Program-made: the position numbers and the translations under genes
Shown here: in pieces, positions 6,444-15,211 of the stretch
How positions within the stretch are numbered: position 1 is the stretch's first letter
How the letters are laid out: every line of letters starts with the position of its first letter
Assembly: GCA_002254605.1 (NCBI GenBank)
Contig: NKPV01000004.1
Location: 1 to 54,222, forward strand
Source: Armatimonadetes bacterium JP3_11
GTDB taxonomy: Bacteria > Armatimonadota > Fimbriimonadia > Fimbriimonadales > GBS-DC
Direction of reading: 5' to 3'
Length of the DNA stretch: 54,222 nt
Notes under the pieces: model-generated
Databases searched by the model: none
Seen by the model: only the letters and a program-made list of their open reading frames with translations
What the model was told of the DNA's origin: nothing

Positions 6444-6491
6444 CGTAGTTGCAGGAATCGTTTGCTGGGCTGCGAATTTGACTGTGTCAAG

Positions 6492-9473
6492 ATGCGCTTC
6501 ACGGAGCCATTGTATCTGTTGCTCCTGCCGATTTTGTGGGGCTGGGTCTGGTGGACAGGGCGGCGTCTACTGGGAGTCAGCCGTGCGCGTCGCCGTGCGA
6601 TTCTCGCCTTGCGTATGCTGCTGATCTTGCTGGTCGTGTTCGCGCTGGCAGGGTGGCAGGGTGTTGGTTCCCTGCGCCGTGTGTGTACGATTTTCGTGCT
6701 GGATCAGTCTGCCAGTATTTCGGATGCGGGGCGTCAGGCGGCGCGCGCGTATCTGCGCCAAGCCCTTCAGAACGCTCCCGACGACGCGCTTTCGGGATTG
6801 GTGGTGTTTGGCGCGGAGCCAGTGGTGGAGTGGCTCCCCGCACCGCGGAAGGACCTTGGCGCGCTGTACGCGAAACCCAACCCAGACGGCTCCGACATTG
6901 CAGGCGCGTTGCGCCTCGCAATGGCGATGTTCCCGGATGGCTATGCGCGGCGCATCGTGTTGTTGACCGACGGCAACGAGACGCACGGCGACGCCCAAGC
7001 CGCCGCGCAGGTCGCCAGTGTGGAGGGAATCCCGATCGATGTGGCGCCCCTACCAACAGGCAAATTGGGCAACGATGCGCTTATCGAAGCACTCGAAGCG
7101 CCCAGCGTCGCCAAAGTGGGCGAACCCTACACGGTACGCATCGTCGTCCAATCGCAACGCCACGCCGAAGGCAAAATCACACTCGATCGTGAAGGGACGC
7201 CTCTCAAGACGCTCCCCGTGAAACTCTCGCCAGGGGTGAACCTCATCACGACCACACTCCGCGCGGATGCGCCGGGGATGCAGCGTATCCGTGCCACCTT
7301 AGAAGCCCAGCCTGACAGCGACCCGCGCAACAATATCGGTCTCGCTCTGACTCGCGTGCAAGGCAAGCCCCATGTGCTCATCGCCGAAGGCAAGACCGGC
7401 GCCAGCGAGGCAATCGCTCGCGCCCTTCAGGCGAACTCGATTGCCGTGACGCGCGTAGGGGAAGGCAACTTCCCGACCACCCCCGAAAAACTGCTGGACT
7501 ACGACGCCATCGTGTTCAACGACTTCCCCGCCACGGCACTCAGCCCCCAGCAGATGGAGGCGATCAAAAACGCCGTGCGCGATGGAGGGGTCGGCTTCGT
7601 GATGATTGGCGGGATGCAGTCCTATCAGATGGGCGGCTACTACGGTACCCCCATCGCCGAACTGTTGCCCGTAGATTTAGACATCAAACACCGTCAAATC
7701 CAACACGCCGCCACAGTTATCCTGATCGTAGACGCTTCGGGCAGCATGAATGAACATCTCGGAACACATAAGGTGGCGCACCTTGCAGCAGAGGCGTCCA
7801 TCAAAACGCTACGGATGCTACGCCCGATGGATCGCTTCGGCGTGATTATCAGCAGTCATGGCTCGGATTGGCTGTTACCCGACTATGCCCGCACAGGATT
7901 TGACCCGTTCAGTTGCGACGGGCGTAACTTTCGAGGTTGCCACGGTCAGCGCGCCGGTCAACCGCCCAGCGCGATTTTCCCTGCGAGCGAGCGTGAGTCG
8001 ATTATTGCCGTCCTGCAAAAGGTGTACGGCACAGGCGGGGGTATTTTCGTGCGCGGCAGCTTGGAGATGGCGATGCGCGGAATGCTTACCGAACCCCCCG
8101 ACCGCGCCCGCCACATCATCATGCTCGCCGACGCCACCGATTGCGACGAGCAAGAGGGGAGCATAGAACGCGCACGCCAGCTGCGGGCGATGGGCGTGAC
8201 GCTGAGCGTCGTGGCGTTCGGTGATGGCAAAGACACAGCGTTCCTGAAACAACTGGCGCGTGTGGGCGGGGGACAGTTTTACCAGACACGCGACGCCCAC
8301 GCGCTCCCACGGCTGTTTACTGCCGATGTGAGCGCGATGACCCGCAGCACAGTCGAGGAAGGCGCGTTTATCCCCAAAGTCAACGCCTCCGACGAACGCT
8401 TGCGCGAGGTCGATTGGTCGCGCACTCCCGCACTGCTGGCGTATAACTTGGTCTCAGACCGCCCGCTGGCGCAGGTACTGATGCGCACCCACAAGGACGA
8501 CCCGTTGCTGGCGGTATGGCGCTATGGGCTGGGCACGGCGATCGCATTTACTTCGGACGCGCAGCCGCGCTGGGCGCAACGCTGGATTGGCTGGCAAGGC
8601 TATTCGGTGTTCTGGACGCAGGTGATTCGCAGCGCGATGCGCCCCAGCGCCCAGCCGAACCTGGGCTTGACCGCCACAGTGCGCAACGGACAGGCGATTG
8701 TGGAACTCCAAGCGTTCACGCCGCAAGGCGAGCCAATCAACGGACTGACGCCCCAGCTCACGGTGGGCGCGCCGTCGGGCGAGCAGCAGCAACTTACGAT
8801 GAACATGGAAGGCGCAGGGCGCTATGTGGCGCAGTTCCCCTTACGCGAGCATGGGCTTTTCACGCTCACCACGCAAGGCGATTTCGGCGCAGGGCGCGCT
8901 ACGACGCTCAGCACCGCGCTGGCGGTGCCCTATCCCTTAGAGTATCGGTTCTACCGCGAAAACCGCCCCTTACTGGAGCGCATCGCAGCGCAAACTCAGG
9001 GTCGGGTCAATCCAGAGCCTGCCCGCGCCTACGACCCCCCGCCGGCGCCCCAGCAGTTCACGCGCGATTTGTGGACGCTTGCACTCCTGCTTAGCCTGCT
9101 GCTGCTGATGGTGGATATTACTGTGCGGCGCGTAGTGATTACCCTCCCCGAAGCGGTCGCTGCGCTGTGGGGGCGGTTGCGCTGGAGGCGCGTCCCGCGC
9201 GTTGCGATAACGCAAACCGCCCAACGCTTGCAAGCCGCCAAGCAACGCGCCGCTGCGGCACGAGCCGCCCCTCACGCACGCCCTATCTCGGAGGCGCGCG
9301 CATCCGCGCCTACACCTCCGAAGGAATCGCCATCACCCCCCAGTCCAACCAGCTCGGATGCGCAACGCATGGAGGAGACGCCCAAGCAACGCGCTGCGCC
9401 CCCTGATAACCCCCATCCCCAAGAGACGCTCGACCGTCTACTCAAAACCAAGCAACGAACCCATAAACACTAA
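6492..9473 (+). CDS. Large membrane protein with two VWA-like domains flanking a glutamine-amidotransferase-like domain
   Basis: Start MRFTEPLYLLLLPILWGWVWW; VWA motifs FVLDQSASIS and ILIVDASGSMN; HVLIAEGKTGASEAIARAL...DYDAIVFNDFPA between them; C-terminal TM helix near TRDLWTLALLLSLLLLMVDI. Confidence 0.85.
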   Translation: MRFTEPLYLLLLPILWGWVWWTGRRLLGVSRARRRAILALRMLLILLVVFALAGWQGVGSLRRVCTIFVLDQSASISDAGRQAARAYLRQALQNAPDDALSGLVVFGAEPVVEWLPAPRKDLGALYAKPNPDGSDIAGALRLAMAMFPDGYARRIVLLTDGNETHGDAQAAAQVASVEGIPIDVAPLPTGKLGNDALIEALEAPSVAKVGEPYTVRIVVQSQRHAEGKITLDREGTPLKTLPVKLSPGVNLITTTLRADAPGMQRIRATLEAQPDSDPRNNIGLALTRVQGKPHVLIAEGKTGASEAIARALQANSIAVTRVGEGNFPTTPEKLLDYDAIVFNDFPATALSPQQMEAIKNAVRDGGVGFVMIGGMQSYQMGGYYGTPIAELLPVDLDIKHRQIQHAATVILIVDASGSMNEHLGTHKVAHLAAEASIKTLRMLRPMDRFGVIISSHGSDWLLPDYARTGFDPFSCDGRNFRGCHGQRAGQPPSAIFPASERESIIAVLQKVYGTGGGIFVRGSLEMAMRGMLTEPPDRARHIIMLADATDCDEQEGSIERARQLRAMGVTLSVVAFGDGKDTAFLKQLARVGGGQFYQTRDAHALPRLFTADVSAMTRSTVEEGAFIPKVNASDERLREVDWSRTPALLAYNLVSDRPLAQVLMRTHKDDPLLAVWRYGLGTAIAFTSDAQPRWAQRWIGWQGYSVFWTQVIRSAMRPSAQPNLGLTATVRNGQAIVELQAFTPQGEPINGLTPQLTVGAPSGEQQQLTMNMEGAGRYVAQFPLREHGLFTLTTQGDFGAGRATTLSTALAVPYPLEYRFYRENRPLLERIAAQTQGRVNPEPARAYDPPPAPQQFTRDLWTLALLLSLLLLMVDITVRRVVITLPEAVAALWGRLRWRRVPRVAITQTAQRLQAAKQRAAAARAAPHARPISEARASAPTPPKESPSPPSPTSSDAQRMEETPKQRAAPPDNPHPQETLDRLLKTKQRTHKH

Positions 9474-9513: not shown

Positions 9514-10389
9514 CTACTCCCGTCGTTGCACGCCGCGGGACGCTTTATCGTTGAGGGATTTGACCACCGCGTACAGCGAATCGCTGAGCCACCAGAGCCG
9601 TTCCACGCTGGGGGAGATACGCGCCGCGGGCAGGGCGCATTCCGTTTCAGAAAACAACTGCTCAATCGCGGCGCGTTTCGCATCGCCCGCCACCAGAAAC
9701 CAGACTCGGGGCGCCGCGTTCAACACGGGTAAGGTTAGCGTCAGGCGTTGATGGGGCGCTACCGGCGCACGGCTTGGAACCACCCAGCGCGTGGTCTCCT
9801 CCAAGGCAGGGTCGCCAGGGAATAACGAGGCGATGTGTCCATCGTCGCCCATTCCCAGCAGCACCAGGTCAAAAACTGGAACGGGAGCCTCCGCGCCGAA
9901 GTAGGCATGCAGTTCGGCTTCGTAGGCACGCGCGGCGTCCTCTGGGTTAGGGTAGTGCGTCGGCATCGGATGGATATTCTCGCGAGGAATCGGCGCTTTG
10001 CTCAACCACGCGGTGTACGCCAAAAAGTAGTTGCTTCGCGGATCCTCGTGGGGCACATAGCGCTCATCTCCCCAGAACAGGTGCACGCGCGACCAGTCCA
10101 ACCGACTTTGATAGTGGCGTGTGGCAAGCAGCAGGTAGAGCGTTTCCGGCGTCTTGCCTCCAGACAACGCAAGGCTACAGGTGGGCTGCTGCGTCAGTCG
10201 TGCTTCCAGCAACTCGACCAGCGCGTCCGCCACCAGTTGCCAGTCCAGAGGCAATATCGTCCCGCGAGGATGGCGTTGCCCGTGCCGAATGATTAATCGC
10301 AACACCACTCGCAGGTCGGGGGCTTCCTCCAGCATCTGTAAGAGTTGCTGGAATTGCTCGTCAGCGTTCTCCGCGCGCTGCGTCTCCAT
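9514..10389 (-). CDS. pgl: 6-phosphogluconolactonase
   Basis: LALSGGKTPETLYLLLA, HLFWGDERYVPHEDPRSNYFLA, DLVLLGMGDDGHIASLFPG. Confidence 0.93.
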   Translation of the reverse strand: METQRAENADEQFQQLLQMLEEAPDLRVVLRLIIRHGQRHPRGTILPLDWQLVADALVELLEARLTQQPTCSLALSGGKTPETLYLLLATRHYQSRLDWSRVHLFWGDERYVPHEDPRSNYFLAYTAWLSKAPIPRENIHPMPTHYPNPEDAARAYEAELHAYFGAEAPVPVFDLVLLGMGDDGHIASLFPGDPALEETTRWVVPSRAPVAPHQRLTLTLPVLNAAPRVWFLVAGDAKRAAIEQLFSETECALPAARISPSVERLWWLSDSLYAVVKSLNDKASRGVQRRE

Positions 10390-10416: not shown

Positions 10417-11391
10417 CTACAACGACTGCGCCCCCAGCGTGACGGGCAGGCTAATGCGTTGTCCTTCGCGGAGGACAGTGATTGCGACGCGCTGGTTGGG
10501 CTGTGCGAAGTAAAGAGCGCGTGTGAGGTCTGCCGCGGTGCGGATGGGCTTCTCGTCGAACTGCACGACGATATCGCCTACAGCAATCCCTGCTCGCTGG
10601 GCAGGGCTATTCATCGCCACGCGCCGTACCACGACCCCTGTGGGCAGCCCTTGATAGTCGATGCCCAGCCAGGCGTGTTCGGCGCGTCCTTTGGTGCGCA
10701 GGTCGTTCACCACACGCCGTGCGATCTCCGAGGGCACGGCGAACCCAAACACCGCCACCGACGCCACAGGAGCCCCCTCTACCGAGGCTAACTCGCCCGT
10801 CATTACGCCGATCACGCGCCCCTGCGAATCCAGCAGCGGCGCGCCAGACTCTCCAGAGCCGACCGTGCCGTTGAACTGCAAGAGCAGCACCACACGCTGA
10901 TTATCGCGACGCACGCCGACACGGTCTTTGCCGCCCAGCGTGCCCACCGTTACACTCCCTTCCAGACCGCTTCTATTGCCTATCAGGATAACGGTAGAGC
11001 CAAGCGGCGCACGGTCCGACTCGCCCCAACTCAGCGCAGGGAGTTTAAGGGGAGTGTTCACTTGCAGCAATGCAAGCCCTGTGATATTGTCCACTCCTGC
11101 TACGCTGGCGACGACGGGTTCCCCGTCAGGCAAGTAGACCGTGACGCGGGTTTGCGTGCGCACCCCTTCCGCCGAGCAGACCACCCAGCCCGATGAATCG
11201 ATCAAAAACCCACTGCTGCGCGTTAGGCGTCCGCTCAGGCGCGCCTCGATGGTCACTACGGCGGGCAGGGCGCGCTCTACCACCTGGCTAATCTCCTGTC
11301 CTGCACGCTCCAGCAGCGACGGCTGCTGCGCGAATGCCCAAGTGAACAGCCATGCCGTACTAAAAAGAACAGATAATCGCATCGTTCGCAT
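10417..11391 (-). CDS. HtrA/Deg-like trypsin-fold protein with PDZ domain; catalytic His and Asp apparently lost
   Basis: Signal peptide MRTMRLSVLFSTAWLFTWAFAQ; trypsin-like core with GSGESGAPLLD; PDZ domain GVVVRRVAMNSPAQRAGIAVGDIVVQFDEKPI. Start refined to 11391. Confidence 0.85.
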   Translation of the reverse strand: MRTMRLSVLFSTAWLFTWAFAQQPSLLERAGQEISQVVERALPAVVTIEARLSGRLTRSSGFLIDSSGWVVCSAEGVRTQTRVTVYLPDGEPVVASVAGVDNITGLALLQVNTPLKLPALSWGESDRAPLGSTVILIGNRSGLEGSVTVGTLGGKDRVGVRRDNQRVVLLLQFNGTVGSGESGAPLLDSQGRVIGVMTGELASVEGAPVASVAVFGFAVPSEIARRVVNDLRTKGRAEHAWLGIDYQGLPTGVVVRRVAMNSPAQRAGIAVGDIVVQFDEKPIRTAADLTRALYFAQPNQRVAITVLREGQRISLPVTLGAQSL

Positions 11392-12160
11392 TCCTCTCGT
11401 TGTATGTCTCGGATGATGGCGTTCCGTAACGAATAGGTAGGTACTCCACCTGCAAACCGTAGTGTAGTTCGTACTGGCTAAGCGGTAAACTGGCGACGGC
11501 GAACGGTTCGGAGTTCCGCATTGAGGACTCACTCCCTCTTGGCGGCGATTCTGGGGGCATCGGGGTCCGCATTCTCGCAGCAAGCGTTGCTTGGGCAAGT
11601 TGCATTTCCGCACCCGCGCGGCTGGCTGGTTTCCGCGTAGTGGCGTCGCGCGTGCCGCGCTGTATTTTGCGGACAATATAGGGTTGAGGCGCGGTGGAAG
11701 TGATCGCTTTCGGCGCCGCTGGGCGCCCCCCCCGCTCTGGCGCGAAATAGGCTGTAGGCGGTTCCGTGGCTCTGAGCGACAGGTCTTGGTGGATAGCAGG
11801 CGCGTGTGCTATCGCGAACGCGGGAGCCTCCGTTTGAGGCGTACGGATAAGCCACGCGAGCCACGCAGCGACCAAAGCAACGGCGAAGCCTCCTGCATAG
11901 GCATAAGGTCGCCATATCGGCGCGTGCTTTACTGCCCCCTGCGCCGCCCGTCGCGCTTGAATCGCCGCCCACGGCACTTCGCACGCGGGTATGGGTTCGC
12001 TGCGTGCAGCGTGTAAGCCCTGCTGATACACCTGCTCCAGACGCCATGCACGCTGACATCGCACGCAGTGGGCGATATGCTTCTGGAGCGCACTCGGCAG
12101 GTCGTTCGCTCCGTTCGCTATCCAGCGTTGCACTGTACGGCAAGGGTGTTTTAGTCTCAT
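11360..12160 (-). CDS. Zinc-type anti-sigma factor, single TM
   Basis: HIAHCVRC (HxxxCxxC) anti-sigma motif, TM AGGFAVALVAAWLAWLI, overlaps the upstream ECF sigma gene. Confidence 0.85.
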   Translation of the reverse strand: MRLKHPCRTVQRWIANGANDLPSALQKHIAHCVRCQRAWRLEQVYQQGLHAARSEPIPACEVPWAAIQARRAAQGAVKHAPIWRPYAYAGGFAVALVAAWLAWLIRTPQTEAPAFAIAHAPAIHQDLSLRATEPPTAYFAPERGGRPAAPKAITSTAPQPYIVRKIQRGTRDATTRKPASRAGAEMQLAQATLAARMRTPMPPESPPRGSESSMRNSEPFAVASLPLSQYELHYGLQVEYLPIRYGTPSSETYNERNANDAIICSF

Positions 12161-12783
12161 TCCAGTTCTCCGATGGCTCGCAACAGCGGCTCTAATTTGG
12201 CTTTGAAGGCGCGTCGAGCGCGCATCACACGCAACTTAACAGCCCCCACACTCGCGCCCAAAATCTGCGCGATTTCCTCATAGTCCATCTCTTCCAGATC
12301 GCGCAGGATAATCAGTTGGCGATGATGTTCGGGCAGCTGATCCAGCGCGGTGTAGAACGCCTCCTGAAAAGCGCTCTGCTGTGTGGCTTCGATGGGGTCG
12401 GGCGCGTTGGGATGGCTCCATGCCAGTTTATGATCTGCTTCGCGTTCCAGCAGCACCTGCCGTCGGTGGCGCATGCGCGCTCGGTCGGTACAGAGGTTAA
12501 GGGCGATGCGCATCAGCCATGTGCTGAATCGGCTCTGCTCGCGGAAGGTGTGCAGGCGTTCGAACGCCTTGAGGAACACATCCTGCACGATGTCTTCCGC
12601 TTCATCGATATTGCGCGTGGAGCGGTACACGACTCGAAAAATCGGTTGTCGGTAGCGCAGGTACAGCTCTTCCATCGCGGCGCTGTCGCCTGCACGGGCT
12701 TTCGCTGCCAGTTGCTCGTCGGTGAGCGTGCGGTCTACCGCTCCAGCGTACAGGTTATCCATCGCTAACGCCCGATCCATCAC
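12157..12783 (-). CDS. ECF-type RNA polymerase sigma factor
   Basis: RNIDEAEDIVQDVFLKAFERLHTFREQSRFSTWLMRIALNLCTD and LPEHHRQLIILRDLEEMDYEEIAQILGASVGAVKLRVMRARRAFK. Confidence 0.95.
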   Translation of the reverse strand: MMDRALAMDNLYAGAVDRTLTDEQLAAKARAGDSAAMEELYLRYRQPIFRVVYRSTRNIDEAEDIVQDVFLKAFERLHTFREQSRFSTWLMRIALNLCTDRARMRHRRQVLLEREADHKLAWSHPNAPDPIEATQQSAFQEAFYTALDQLPEHHRQLIILRDLEEMDYEEIAQILGASVGAVKLRVMRARRAFKAKLEPLLRAIGELE

Positions 12784-12795
12784 ATCGTCTGACGC

Positions 12796-14286
12796 TTATC
12801 CTTCTAAAGCGTTTCGGGAGAGCGTCGCCTGCAACACGCGTCGCGTTTGCGGCGTGATGCGCGCACGCGCGGCAATCGTATAGCCCGGAATCCACAAGAT
12901 ACCTACCTCGTCGCAAAGCAGCGGCAGCCGTCGGCGCTGCGCTTTGGGAATTTTGCGGTCGATGAAGATGTCGCTGAGCTTCTTCGGCGCGGTCATGCCT
13001 AACGGCTGGAACCGCTCGCCCCGTCGCCCATTCCGCACAACAAGCTGCCCCCGAACCGCATCGGCATCAAAACATACCTCCAGGCTCTGAGCGTCCCCGC
13101 ACGACACGACCTCGCTCAGCCCACCAGGGACGCTTATCTCGCGAATCAGCAGCCACGCACCCGCTTGGGGAATGAACAACGGAGTACCGAGAACAACGGG
13201 ATACTCGAACGATTCGGGTTCGGAGCGATCTTCGTGGAGGGTCAAAGCGTTCTCGTCGGTGGTCAGGCGCAGGCGGTCGCTCAGCTGCCAAGAGGTACGC
13301 TGTCCACGCAGCGCCGCACCGCGGATACCTTCCAGAATCTCGAAGGGGGGCAGGTTTAGCGTCCCCAGATGCGGACGGAGCCACTCACGCAGTAGCCGAC
13401 GCTGAAGCGCGGGGTGGAGTCGGGTAAAAGAGAGCCGCGGAATCCGAGCAACGCTCCCTCTCCCTATGCCTTCCGCTTCGGCGACATAAGCGGGGGTCTG
13501 CAGGCGAGTAGGCTCCCCCCATTCGGCACGGGCAAGGGATTGTGGAGAGGCATAAATCGCCTTCAAGACTTCCTGCACCTGATGGTCCCACCACGCCTCC
13601 TCGTCTTCCAAAATGGCAGCAAGGCGGAGCAAATGGTTCTCAAAAGCGGGCGCCATCGACCGCATGAGGGGGATTAACTCCGCTCGAACGCGGCGGCGCA
13701 TTTGATGGGGGTCTAAGTTCGTGCTGTCGAACACGGTCGGCAGGTTCTGCTCGGCGCAGTAGCGATGGGTCTGTTCGCGCGTGGCATCAAGTAGGGGGCG
13801 GATAATACGGTCGCGCCGATATGGCATCCCACACAAGCCACGCGGTCCAGTGCCCCGCAGCAGGTTGATGAGAATCGTCTCAATCTGGTCATCTTGGGTG
13901 TGCGCCAGTGCGACGGCGACGGCGTTTAGCTCGGCAGCGAGCCGTTCGAAGAAAGCGTAGCGTGCGTCGCGCCCGGCTTCCTCCAGCGATACTTTGCGTG
14001 CTTTTGCAAGGGCAGGCACATCGACCCGCTCCACATGCAGCGGAATTCCGAGCCGTTCGCACACCGCGCGGCACACTTCGACATCGGCGTCGGCTTCGGG
14101 GCGCATGCCGTGATGCAAGTGTGCCGCATGGATTTGGAGATGGAACTCCTCTTGCAGGCGGGTCATCAGGTGCAGCAATGCCGTGGAGTCCGCCCCGCCC
14201 GAATAGCCCACAATCACCACGCCCCCTTCGGGCGGTAGCAAGCCCCGTTCACGGATTGTGGCGCGGACGCGCTGCAGAATCTCCAT
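12796..14286 (-). CDS. tilS: tRNA(Ile)-lysidine synthase
   Basis: PP-loop GYSGGADSTALLHLM; IHAAHLHHGMRPEADADVEVCRAVCERLGIPLHVERVDV; HTQDDQIETILINLLRGTGPRGLCGM. Start refined to 14286. Confidence 0.93.
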   Translation of the reverse strand: MEILQRVRATIRERGLLPPEGGVVIVGYSGGADSTALLHLMTRLQEEFHLQIHAAHLHHGMRPEADADVEVCRAVCERLGIPLHVERVDVPALAKARKVSLEEAGRDARYAFFERLAAELNAVAVALAHTQDDQIETILINLLRGTGPRGLCGMPYRRDRIIRPLLDATREQTHRYCAEQNLPTVFDSTNLDPHQMRRRVRAELIPLMRSMAPAFENHLLRLAAILEDEEAWWDHQVQEVLKAIYASPQSLARAEWGEPTRLQTPAYVAEAEGIGRGSVARIPRLSFTRLHPALQRRLLREWLRPHLGTLNLPPFEILEGIRGAALRGQRTSWQLSDRLRLTTDENALTLHEDRSEPESFEYPVVLGTPLFIPQAGAWLLIREISVPGGLSEVVSCGDAQSLEVCFDADAVRGQLVVRNGRRGERFQPLGMTAPKKLSDIFIDRKIPKAQRRRLPLLCDEVGILWIPGYTIAARARITPQTRRVLQATLSRNALEG

Positions 14287-14290
14287 CGGT

Positions 14291-15211
14291 TTAGTAGGCG
14301 CGCCAGTGGCGGCGGATGAGGTCGCGCGTTTTGCGCACCCCTTCAATCGGGTCGTCTTCGCCCGCATATTCGATGGAGAGTGCGCCGACATAGCTGGCAA
14401 GGCGCAAGATGCTCAACACGCGCCCATACTCGATCGTGGTTTCCTCGCCGCGTGCATCAAAGGCGAAACTCTTTGCGTGCGCGTGGAAGGCGTAAGGGGC
14501 AAGCATGCGCGCCGCGTCGTAGAGGCGTTCGGGCGCGCCGTGCCCAAAGTCGTAGCACACACCCACCCAGCGGGGGTCGCTCATGCGAATCAAGTGGAGC
14601 AGCGTCTCGGGGCGTTTGCCGATACCTTCGCGGTTCTCGATCGTGATTCGCACACGCCGACGACGGGCTTCGGGCAACAACCGTTGCAGGAACAGCGCCG
14701 CGCGTTCCAGCAGCTCCTCATCGCGCTCGCTGGTCAGGTGTAATCGAATCAGGGGGGCTTGCAGAATCGCCGCCGCGTGCAAACGCTCGGTTAACTCGTC
14801 CAGTCGACGGCTTAGGGTGGTCTCGTCGCTGAGGTTCACTGGCTCCGACACCATCACGCCGGTAATCGCGATGCCGTGCCGATGATAGGTCTCGCGTAGG
14901 TTTTCGAGATAACGCGGATGGAGGCTACTTAGGTAGCGGTCGCTGAGACTGACGCCTTGAATATCGAGCTCGTGGAGTACGGCGCAGCAGGTCTCCAGAG
15001 TGATCTGCCCCGTCTCCAGCAGGGGGTGCAGGGCGCGGGTTTCGCAACTGAGAATCGGCATCAGGGGCGCTGGTTTTGGCTCGCCGCGCTCTATCAGTTC
15101 GCTCACCCGCTCCAGTTTCTCGAAGACGCCCCCAAAACCTGCATTCACCAGCGAGCGCAACCCCTCGCGCAGAAAATCGCGTCGACTGGTGGGCTTGTCG
15201 TGTCGGCTCAT
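14291..15211 (-). CDS. Sugar phosphate isomerase/epimerase
   Basis: TIM-barrel family motifs VRITIENREGIGKRPETLLHLIR, VGVCYDFGHGAPE, YAFHAHAKSF, VGALSIEYAGEDDPIEG. Confidence 0.85.
   Translation of the reverse strand: MSRHDKPTSRRDFLREGLRSLVNAGFGGVFEKLERVSELIERGEPKPAPLMPILSCETRALHPLLETGQITLETCCAVLHELDIQGVSLSDRYLSSLHPRYLENLRETYHRHGIAITGVMVSEPVNLSDETTLSRRLDELTERLHAAAILQAPLIRLHLTSERDEELLERAALFLQRLLPEARRRRVRITIENREGIGKRPETLLHLIRMSDPRWVGVCYDFGHGAPERLYDAARMLAPYAFHAHAKSFAFDARGEETTIEYGRVLSILRLASYVGALSIEYAGEDDPIEGVRKTRDLIRRHWRAY

Follow-up and report, generated by a model that had tools for sequence, protein, structure and literature searches.

The occurrence of an HtrA-type gene beside an anti-sigma factor gene raises the question of what role an HtrA-PDZ protein can have for an anti-sigma factor when it is unable to cut, and the locus described here makes that question testable. 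The DNA analysed, a stretch of 54,222 nucleotides hereafter called the window, comes from a metagenome-derived genome of 2.6 Mb belonging to the Fimbriimonadales (Armatimonadota). A three-gene operon at positions 10417 to 12783 of its minus strand encodes an ECF sigma factor, a membrane anti-sigma factor and a protein with the HtrA fold and a PDZ domain (Table 1).

Table 1. The operon, its neighbours and the overlap compared between frames, with positions in the window.
Feature	Positions	Strand	Properties and basis
6-phosphogluconolactonase-type gene, downstream neighbour	9514..10389	-	Pfam; synteny; 27-nt gap to HtrA gene
HtrA-fold PDZ pseudoprotease	10417..11391	-	324 aa; E75/G105/S182; PDZ about 237-322; signal-peptide-like N-terminus
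Overlap of anti-sigma 3' end (C-terminus -SF) with pseudoprotease start	11360..11391	-	Frame-constraint comparison
Anti-sigma factor	11360..12160	-	N-terminal Hx3Cx2C, one hydrophobic segment, variable linker, C-terminal module YLPxxYG...AIICSF
ECF sigma factor	12157..12783	-	208 aa; Pfam Sigma70_r2 and r4_2
TilS (tRNA-Ile lysidine synthetase), upstream neighbour	12796..14400	-	Pfam; synteny kept in the family of the window

The genes of the operon are closely packed. The sigma gene starts 12 nt past the gene for TilS, which is probably carried on the same transcript, and it overlaps the start of the anti-sigma gene by 4 nt. The anti-sigma and HtrA genes overlap by 32 nt if the latter starts at the ATG at 11391 and by 23 nt if it starts at the ATG at 11382, both of which are in frame. 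The longest listed HtrA open reading frame starts at a TTG (11676), and ortholog alignment places the start at 11391 or 11382 (324 or 321 aa). Start codons were assigned by alignment throughout, and signal peptide and topology by inspection. Convergent with the operon, the plus strand encodes a membrane-type protein of 1003 aa that combines two vWA domains with a GATase1-like region (6462-9473).

The first two proteins conform to known groups. The sigma factor has regions 2 and 4 only and scores 109.7 bits against TIGR02937 (cut-off 42.9), which places it among the ECF sigma factors. The anti-sigma factor has no match in Pfam, and meets the definition of a zinc anti-sigma factor (ZAS) by its Hx3Cx2C motif, the membrane segment that follows and its co-encoding with an ECF sigma factor. 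The motif and the hydrophobic segment were found in all 16 anti-sigma factors tested from the family of the window (its own and 15 orthologs), in which a fast-evolving linker and then a conserved end follow the hydrophobic segment; the position of the gene directly behind the sigma gene is also conserved. Most anti-sigma factors of f3, the largest family of the Fimbriimonadales (e.g. L131, L134 and L139), do not have the Hx3Cx2C motif, and their operon is still conserved.

The third protein has the HtrA (S1C) fold, a trypsin-like domain followed by a PDZ domain, with Pfam matches to Trypsin_2 (1.3e-21) and PDZ_2 (3.4e-17) that both exceed the cut-offs. Its AlphaFold2 model (pLDDT 85.3, pTM 0.82) matches DegQ, DegS, Rv0983 and the HtrA of Mycobacterium tuberculosis (Mtb) in the PDB by Foldseek (E about 1e-26 to 1e-25). 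It does not qualify as a catalytic member of S1C, as the His-Asp-Ser triad is absent. More specifically, alignment with the active paralogs of its own genome puts E75 at the His position, G105 at the Asp position and S182 at the Ser position, within the motifs VVCSAEGV, DNITGLAL and GESGAPL. The only histidine of the protein, H239, lies at the start of the PDZ domain and outside the protease domain, and therefore no alternative histidine can complete the triad. An earlier, sequence-only reading of this DNA had described the gene order, the overlaps and these motifs, which the coordinates and translations of the open reading frames bear out, and had inferred by eye a His-to-Glu and an Asp-to-Gly replacement, a retained Ser and an intact PDZ domain, all of which hold for the window protein. 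It had also named a structural comparison as a check, and the model does match DegS/HtrA folds; a different His and Asp near the Ser would have refuted it, and the protein has no other histidine for that place. From its residues and predicted fold, the window protein is identified as a pseudoprotease linked to the sigma operon. It scores 122.6 bits against the DegS model TIGR02038, under the cut-off of 422.95, and with one histidine it does not meet the surface di-histidine motif of MamO. Its N-terminus is hydrophobic and ends in AFAQQ, which suggests, by inspection only, cleavage of a signal peptide.

The arrangement is widespread within Armatimonadota, to which the survey was confined. The order sigma factor, anti-sigma factor and HtrA-PDZ protein is found at 93 loci, wherever the contig extends far enough: 75 in five families of the Fimbriimonadales (among the family group codes f1, f2, f3, f5, f8 and f12, f1 is the family of the window) and 18 in two other families of the phylum (f8 and f12). 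The sigma profile gave one strong match each in 102 of the 113 genomes of the class, and in 84 of the 88 of high quality. Among the matches inspected, a search of the other families with an HtrA profile returned only active, unlinked paralogs; the linked proteins were missed because they are too divergent, and were recovered through the sigma profile. A diverged HtrA-PDZ protein follows the sigma gene at the 19 loci examined in the order's four remaining families (one, L122, is partial at a contig end) and at 39 of 40 further loci in the same families, the fortieth being cut by a contig end; an anti-sigma reading frame lies between the two genes wherever one could be resolved. A separate fold check of the most divergent group used one protein whose genome is a single contig of 5,231,762 bases; the model of that protein (pLDDT 88.8) matches MucD best, along with DegP and DegS, at E about 1e-17. 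Outside the order, the full trio is present at 18 of 18 loci with the best-matching sigma factor, and no linked HtrA was found at 18 loci with weaker sigma matches, two of which lie on contigs too short to tell.

Loss of the triad is common to the whole set. The catalytic histidine is absent from all 93 linked proteins and at most one triad residue is kept in any of them, with the caveat that a few are incomplete at contig ends and not every position is readable in each. Unlinked HtrA proteins, most of them from the same genomes, have an intact His-Asp-Ser triad in 17 of 17 cases compared. Because the loss recurs at 93 linked loci and the 17 unlinked proteins are intact, it cannot be put down to chance or sequencing error. 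At the 17 loci of f1 the His position is occupied by E (12) or D (5), the Asp position by G (16) or N (1) and the Ser position by P (11), Q (3) or S (3), so that what is fixed in this family is an acidic residue in place of the His, together with the E of GE[P/Q/S]G. The retained Ser of the window is thus incidental rather than a trait of the family, since P or Q stands there at 14 of the 17 loci. The question posed by the sequence-only reading, whether E/G/S is fixed among orthologs, accordingly has a divided answer: an acidic residue at the first position is universal in f1 and the glycine nearly so, and the serine, correctly read in the window, is not kept in most close relatives. The triad loss that it proposed to look for beside ECF anti-sigma genes in related genomes does occur, and no close ortholog has the intact triad that would have contradicted it. 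The suggestion of a sensor, scaffold or inhibitor in place of a site-1 protease gains support and extends to the whole lineage, with function remaining an inference. Elsewhere the triad positions read mostly E-D-G in f5, mostly S-Q-G in f3 and E/D-N-S in all 18 proteins of f8 and f12. The f3 proteins often have a histidine two residues early, but the Asp and Ser are both missing; an alternative triad histidine was rejected for these proteins as well as for the window protein with its single His.

In an IQ-TREE phylogeny of 51 HtrA proteins, which is unrooted and has some long branches, 36 linked proteins are separated from 15 active ones by a branch with support of 100/99, and in a sigma factor tree 29 linked sigma factors lie on one side of a branch supported at 93/86. 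The simplest reading would be a single ancient loss of the triad followed by vertical inheritance. The acidic residue at the His position is probably ancestral, because it is present in f1, f2, f5, f8 and f12. The genome of the window carries a second set on another contig (C273, L063:12202-14943) made up of an ECF sigma factor, a zf-HC2 anti-sigma factor and an intact two-PDZ DegP; in three relatives (L047, L048 and L059) this set lies just downstream of the module, past the phosphogluconolactonase gene, and elsewhere it is separate. Its sigma factor belongs to a different lineage in the sigma tree. The presence of this separate active-DegP set of different lineage in the same genome argues for an ancient loss, as opposed to the recent decay of a DegP or DegS native to the genome. 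A recent duplication of that set as the source of the operon was rejected, as its sigma factor falls elsewhere in the tree and its DegP groups with the active HtrA proteins.

The pseudoprotease gene is under purifying selection. Within the genus the median dN/dS is 0.16 for the HtrA gene, compared with 0.08 for the sigma gene and 0.37 for the anti-sigma gene, and the value of 0.16 implies that the gene is maintained. The best conserved part of the protein is residues 132-189, on the side that once carried the active site (identity 0.86-0.89, against 0.75 for the PDZ domain).

The end of the anti-sigma factor is conserved in a manner particular to each lineage. All 16 proteins of f1 end in SF, and 43 of 50 from f3 and f5 end in GG, the remaining seven having closely similar ends; the final residue is Y or W in f12, the f8 proteins end in VE or IE, and the anti-sigma factor that adjoins the active DegP ends in R. 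Within the f1 overlap the residues of the HtrA frame change (LFS, LFR, RFN, RSN, HSN) and SF-stop remains constant: the two final anti-sigma codons never differ in their first bases, each of which is a wobble site of the HtrA frame, and the wobble positions of the anti-sigma frame vary. The same pattern of frame constraint is seen at the GG tails. Because the constraint sits in the anti-sigma frame and not in the htrA frame, selection appears to act on the tail as part of the anti-sigma protein, although the relatives compared are not independent of one another. That the conserved end is a mere by-product of gene overlap is for the same reason not favoured. Two of the deepest members of f1 end in YSF and FSF, which are similar to the Y-x-F termini that the PDZ domain of DegS binds, and a DegS structure with a YQF peptide is among the PDB entries matched by the window model.

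Several known systems share parts of this design. In the RpoE-RseA-RseB-DegS-RseP system of E. coli, DegS likewise combines an HtrA domain with one PDZ domain, operates with an ECF sigma factor and a membrane anti-sigma factor, and is among the closest folds to the window protein. Unlike DegS, the window protein lacks the triad, is encoded inside the sigma operon and begins with what resembles a cleavable signal peptide more than an anchor. RseB/MucB resembles it in the role proposed below, that of a periplasmic non-enzymatic partner, and in having its gene after the anti-sigma gene, but the fold of RseB is not HtrA-like. The algU-mucA-mucB-mucC-mucD operon of P. aeruginosa also contains an HtrA family gene, mucD; MucD, the best fold match of the divergent linked member, is an active protease, and a separate protein, MucB, acts there as the shield. 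MamO and the inactive MamE paralogs of magnetotactic bacteria keep the HtrA fold without a working triad (PMC4794232), whereas MamO has two metal-binding histidines and serves in biomineralisation (PMC4794232), and the window protein has its one His and belongs to a sigma operon. The order sigma factor, anti-sigma factor, HtrA recurs in Mycobacterium as sigE / rseA-htrA-tatB (PMC10027907), and Mtb HtrA is among the best structural matches to the window protein; unlike the latter it is described as an essential serine protease (PMC10027907), and the same work describes the meaning of the rseA-htrA-tatB operon as still hard to understand (PMC10027907). Thus, HtrA pseudoproteases (MamO) and the gene order (Mtb) are already known. 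The open literature searched, which leaves out most subscription journals, yielded no anciently inactivated HtrA-PDZ protein as a fixed member of an ECF operon. Such a protein means that a signalling operon has kept the protease scaffold and not proteolysis across several families of one phylum, and it bears on why htrA genes adjoin anti-sigma genes in other phyla. Domain-based annotation would label it a trypsin-like peptidase.

With the identity of the pseudoprotease, its fixed linkage, the purifying selection and the lineage-specific anti-sigma tail established at the level of sequence, the preferred reading, which has about an even chance of being correct, is that it serves as a PDZ gatekeeper on the anti-sigma tail, built like DegS and working like RseB. 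A protein so constituted cannot, by its predicted active site, be the site-1 protease, and it probably senses or guards a signal without cutting. The exported pseudoprotease would use its PDZ domain, its former substrate cleft or both to bind the C-terminal tail that the anti-sigma factor has in the periplasm, and so guard it. A competing envelope signal, most simply the exposed C-termini of misassembled outer-membrane proteins, would displace it, whereupon an active HtrA of the genome and then an RseP-type (M50) protease would destroy the anti-sigma factor and free the sigma factor. The genome does encode an M50 site-2 protease, as well as Omp85 proteins ending in QVF and GAY. Binding, the direction of regulation and the nature of the signal are inferred in the absence of binding or expression data, and the direction of control is the weakest step, as an adaptor or a chaperone output would look alike in sequence. 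Binding of the tail by the PDZ domain may not hold in every lineage, since ends such as GG or VE are not typical PDZ ligands, and the anti-sigma factor is itself variable, given that most f3 proteins do without the zinc motif. A more far-reaching version must be offered tentatively and is on the whole improbable: an ECF-paired HtrA of an ancient Armatimonadota module would have lost catalysis once and become a PDZ sensor holding an outer-membrane-protein-like tail (SF, Y); the pathway would then be turned on through competition from misassembled outer-membrane proteins and not through protease activation.

Membership of a sigma operon is also compatible with being an output of the pathway rather than its regulator, and the protein may be a sigma-controlled periplasmic chaperone or holdase, like a protease-dead DegP, that makes no contact with the anti-sigma factor. 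This is unlikely, though a serious contender: the position in the operon would suit a member of the regulon equally well, active DegP genes also occupy such operons (on C273 of the same genome and in the Mtb rseA-htrA-tatB operon, PMC10027907), and chaperone activity of HtrA proteins is established, as for DegP (PMC12735335). However, the strict overlap with the anti-sigma gene and the conserved tail of each lineage fit a dedicated partner better, and the pseudoprotease is short and has a single PDZ domain, unlike the two-PDZ DegP. A doubtful alternative would reverse the sign of control, with the pseudoprotease activating or recruiting an active HtrA, in mixed trimers or as an adaptor, and so promoting cleavage of the anti-sigma factor. 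MamO provides the precedent, as this pseudo-HtrA is needed for MamE proteolysis without an active site of its own (PMC4794232), and the genome has several other HtrA-type proteins from which a partner could come. An active DegP gene does lie just downstream of the module in three relatives, but that DegP is part of a separate sigma/anti-sigma set, and in other genomes it is not linked to the module.

Two further explanations concern the protein rather than the pathway, and both are weaker than the gatekeeper reading. The loss of catalytic residues could mark a decaying gene without function, but this is scarcely credible for a gene with the dN/dS given above, no internal stops, invariant residues around the former active site and retention at 93 loci; on the first and last of these grounds non-functional decay was rejected. 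Sedolisins use a Ser-Glu-Asp triad at low pH, and the protein might in principle still be a protease of unusual mechanism in which the Ser works with Glu or Asp in place of His. E75 and S182 are both present in the window protein, and all 18 proteins of f8 and f12 combine a Ser with an acidic residue in place of the His, yet the third member is N or G and not Asp, and the Ser has been replaced, with the operon context unchanged, by P or Q at 14 of the 17 f1 loci and, almost everywhere else in the order, by G or a different residue, which leaves this mechanism very unlikely. The triad residue that survives differs by lineage. At the f5 loci L123, L124, L130, L137, L166 and L178 the catalytic Asp is kept and the His and Ser are lost, and in f8 and f12 (L187-L191, L193, L194 and L211-L221) it is the Ser that remains, within a fixed set of E/D, N and S that might mean the former active site has a common role in these proteins, in structure or in ligand binding.
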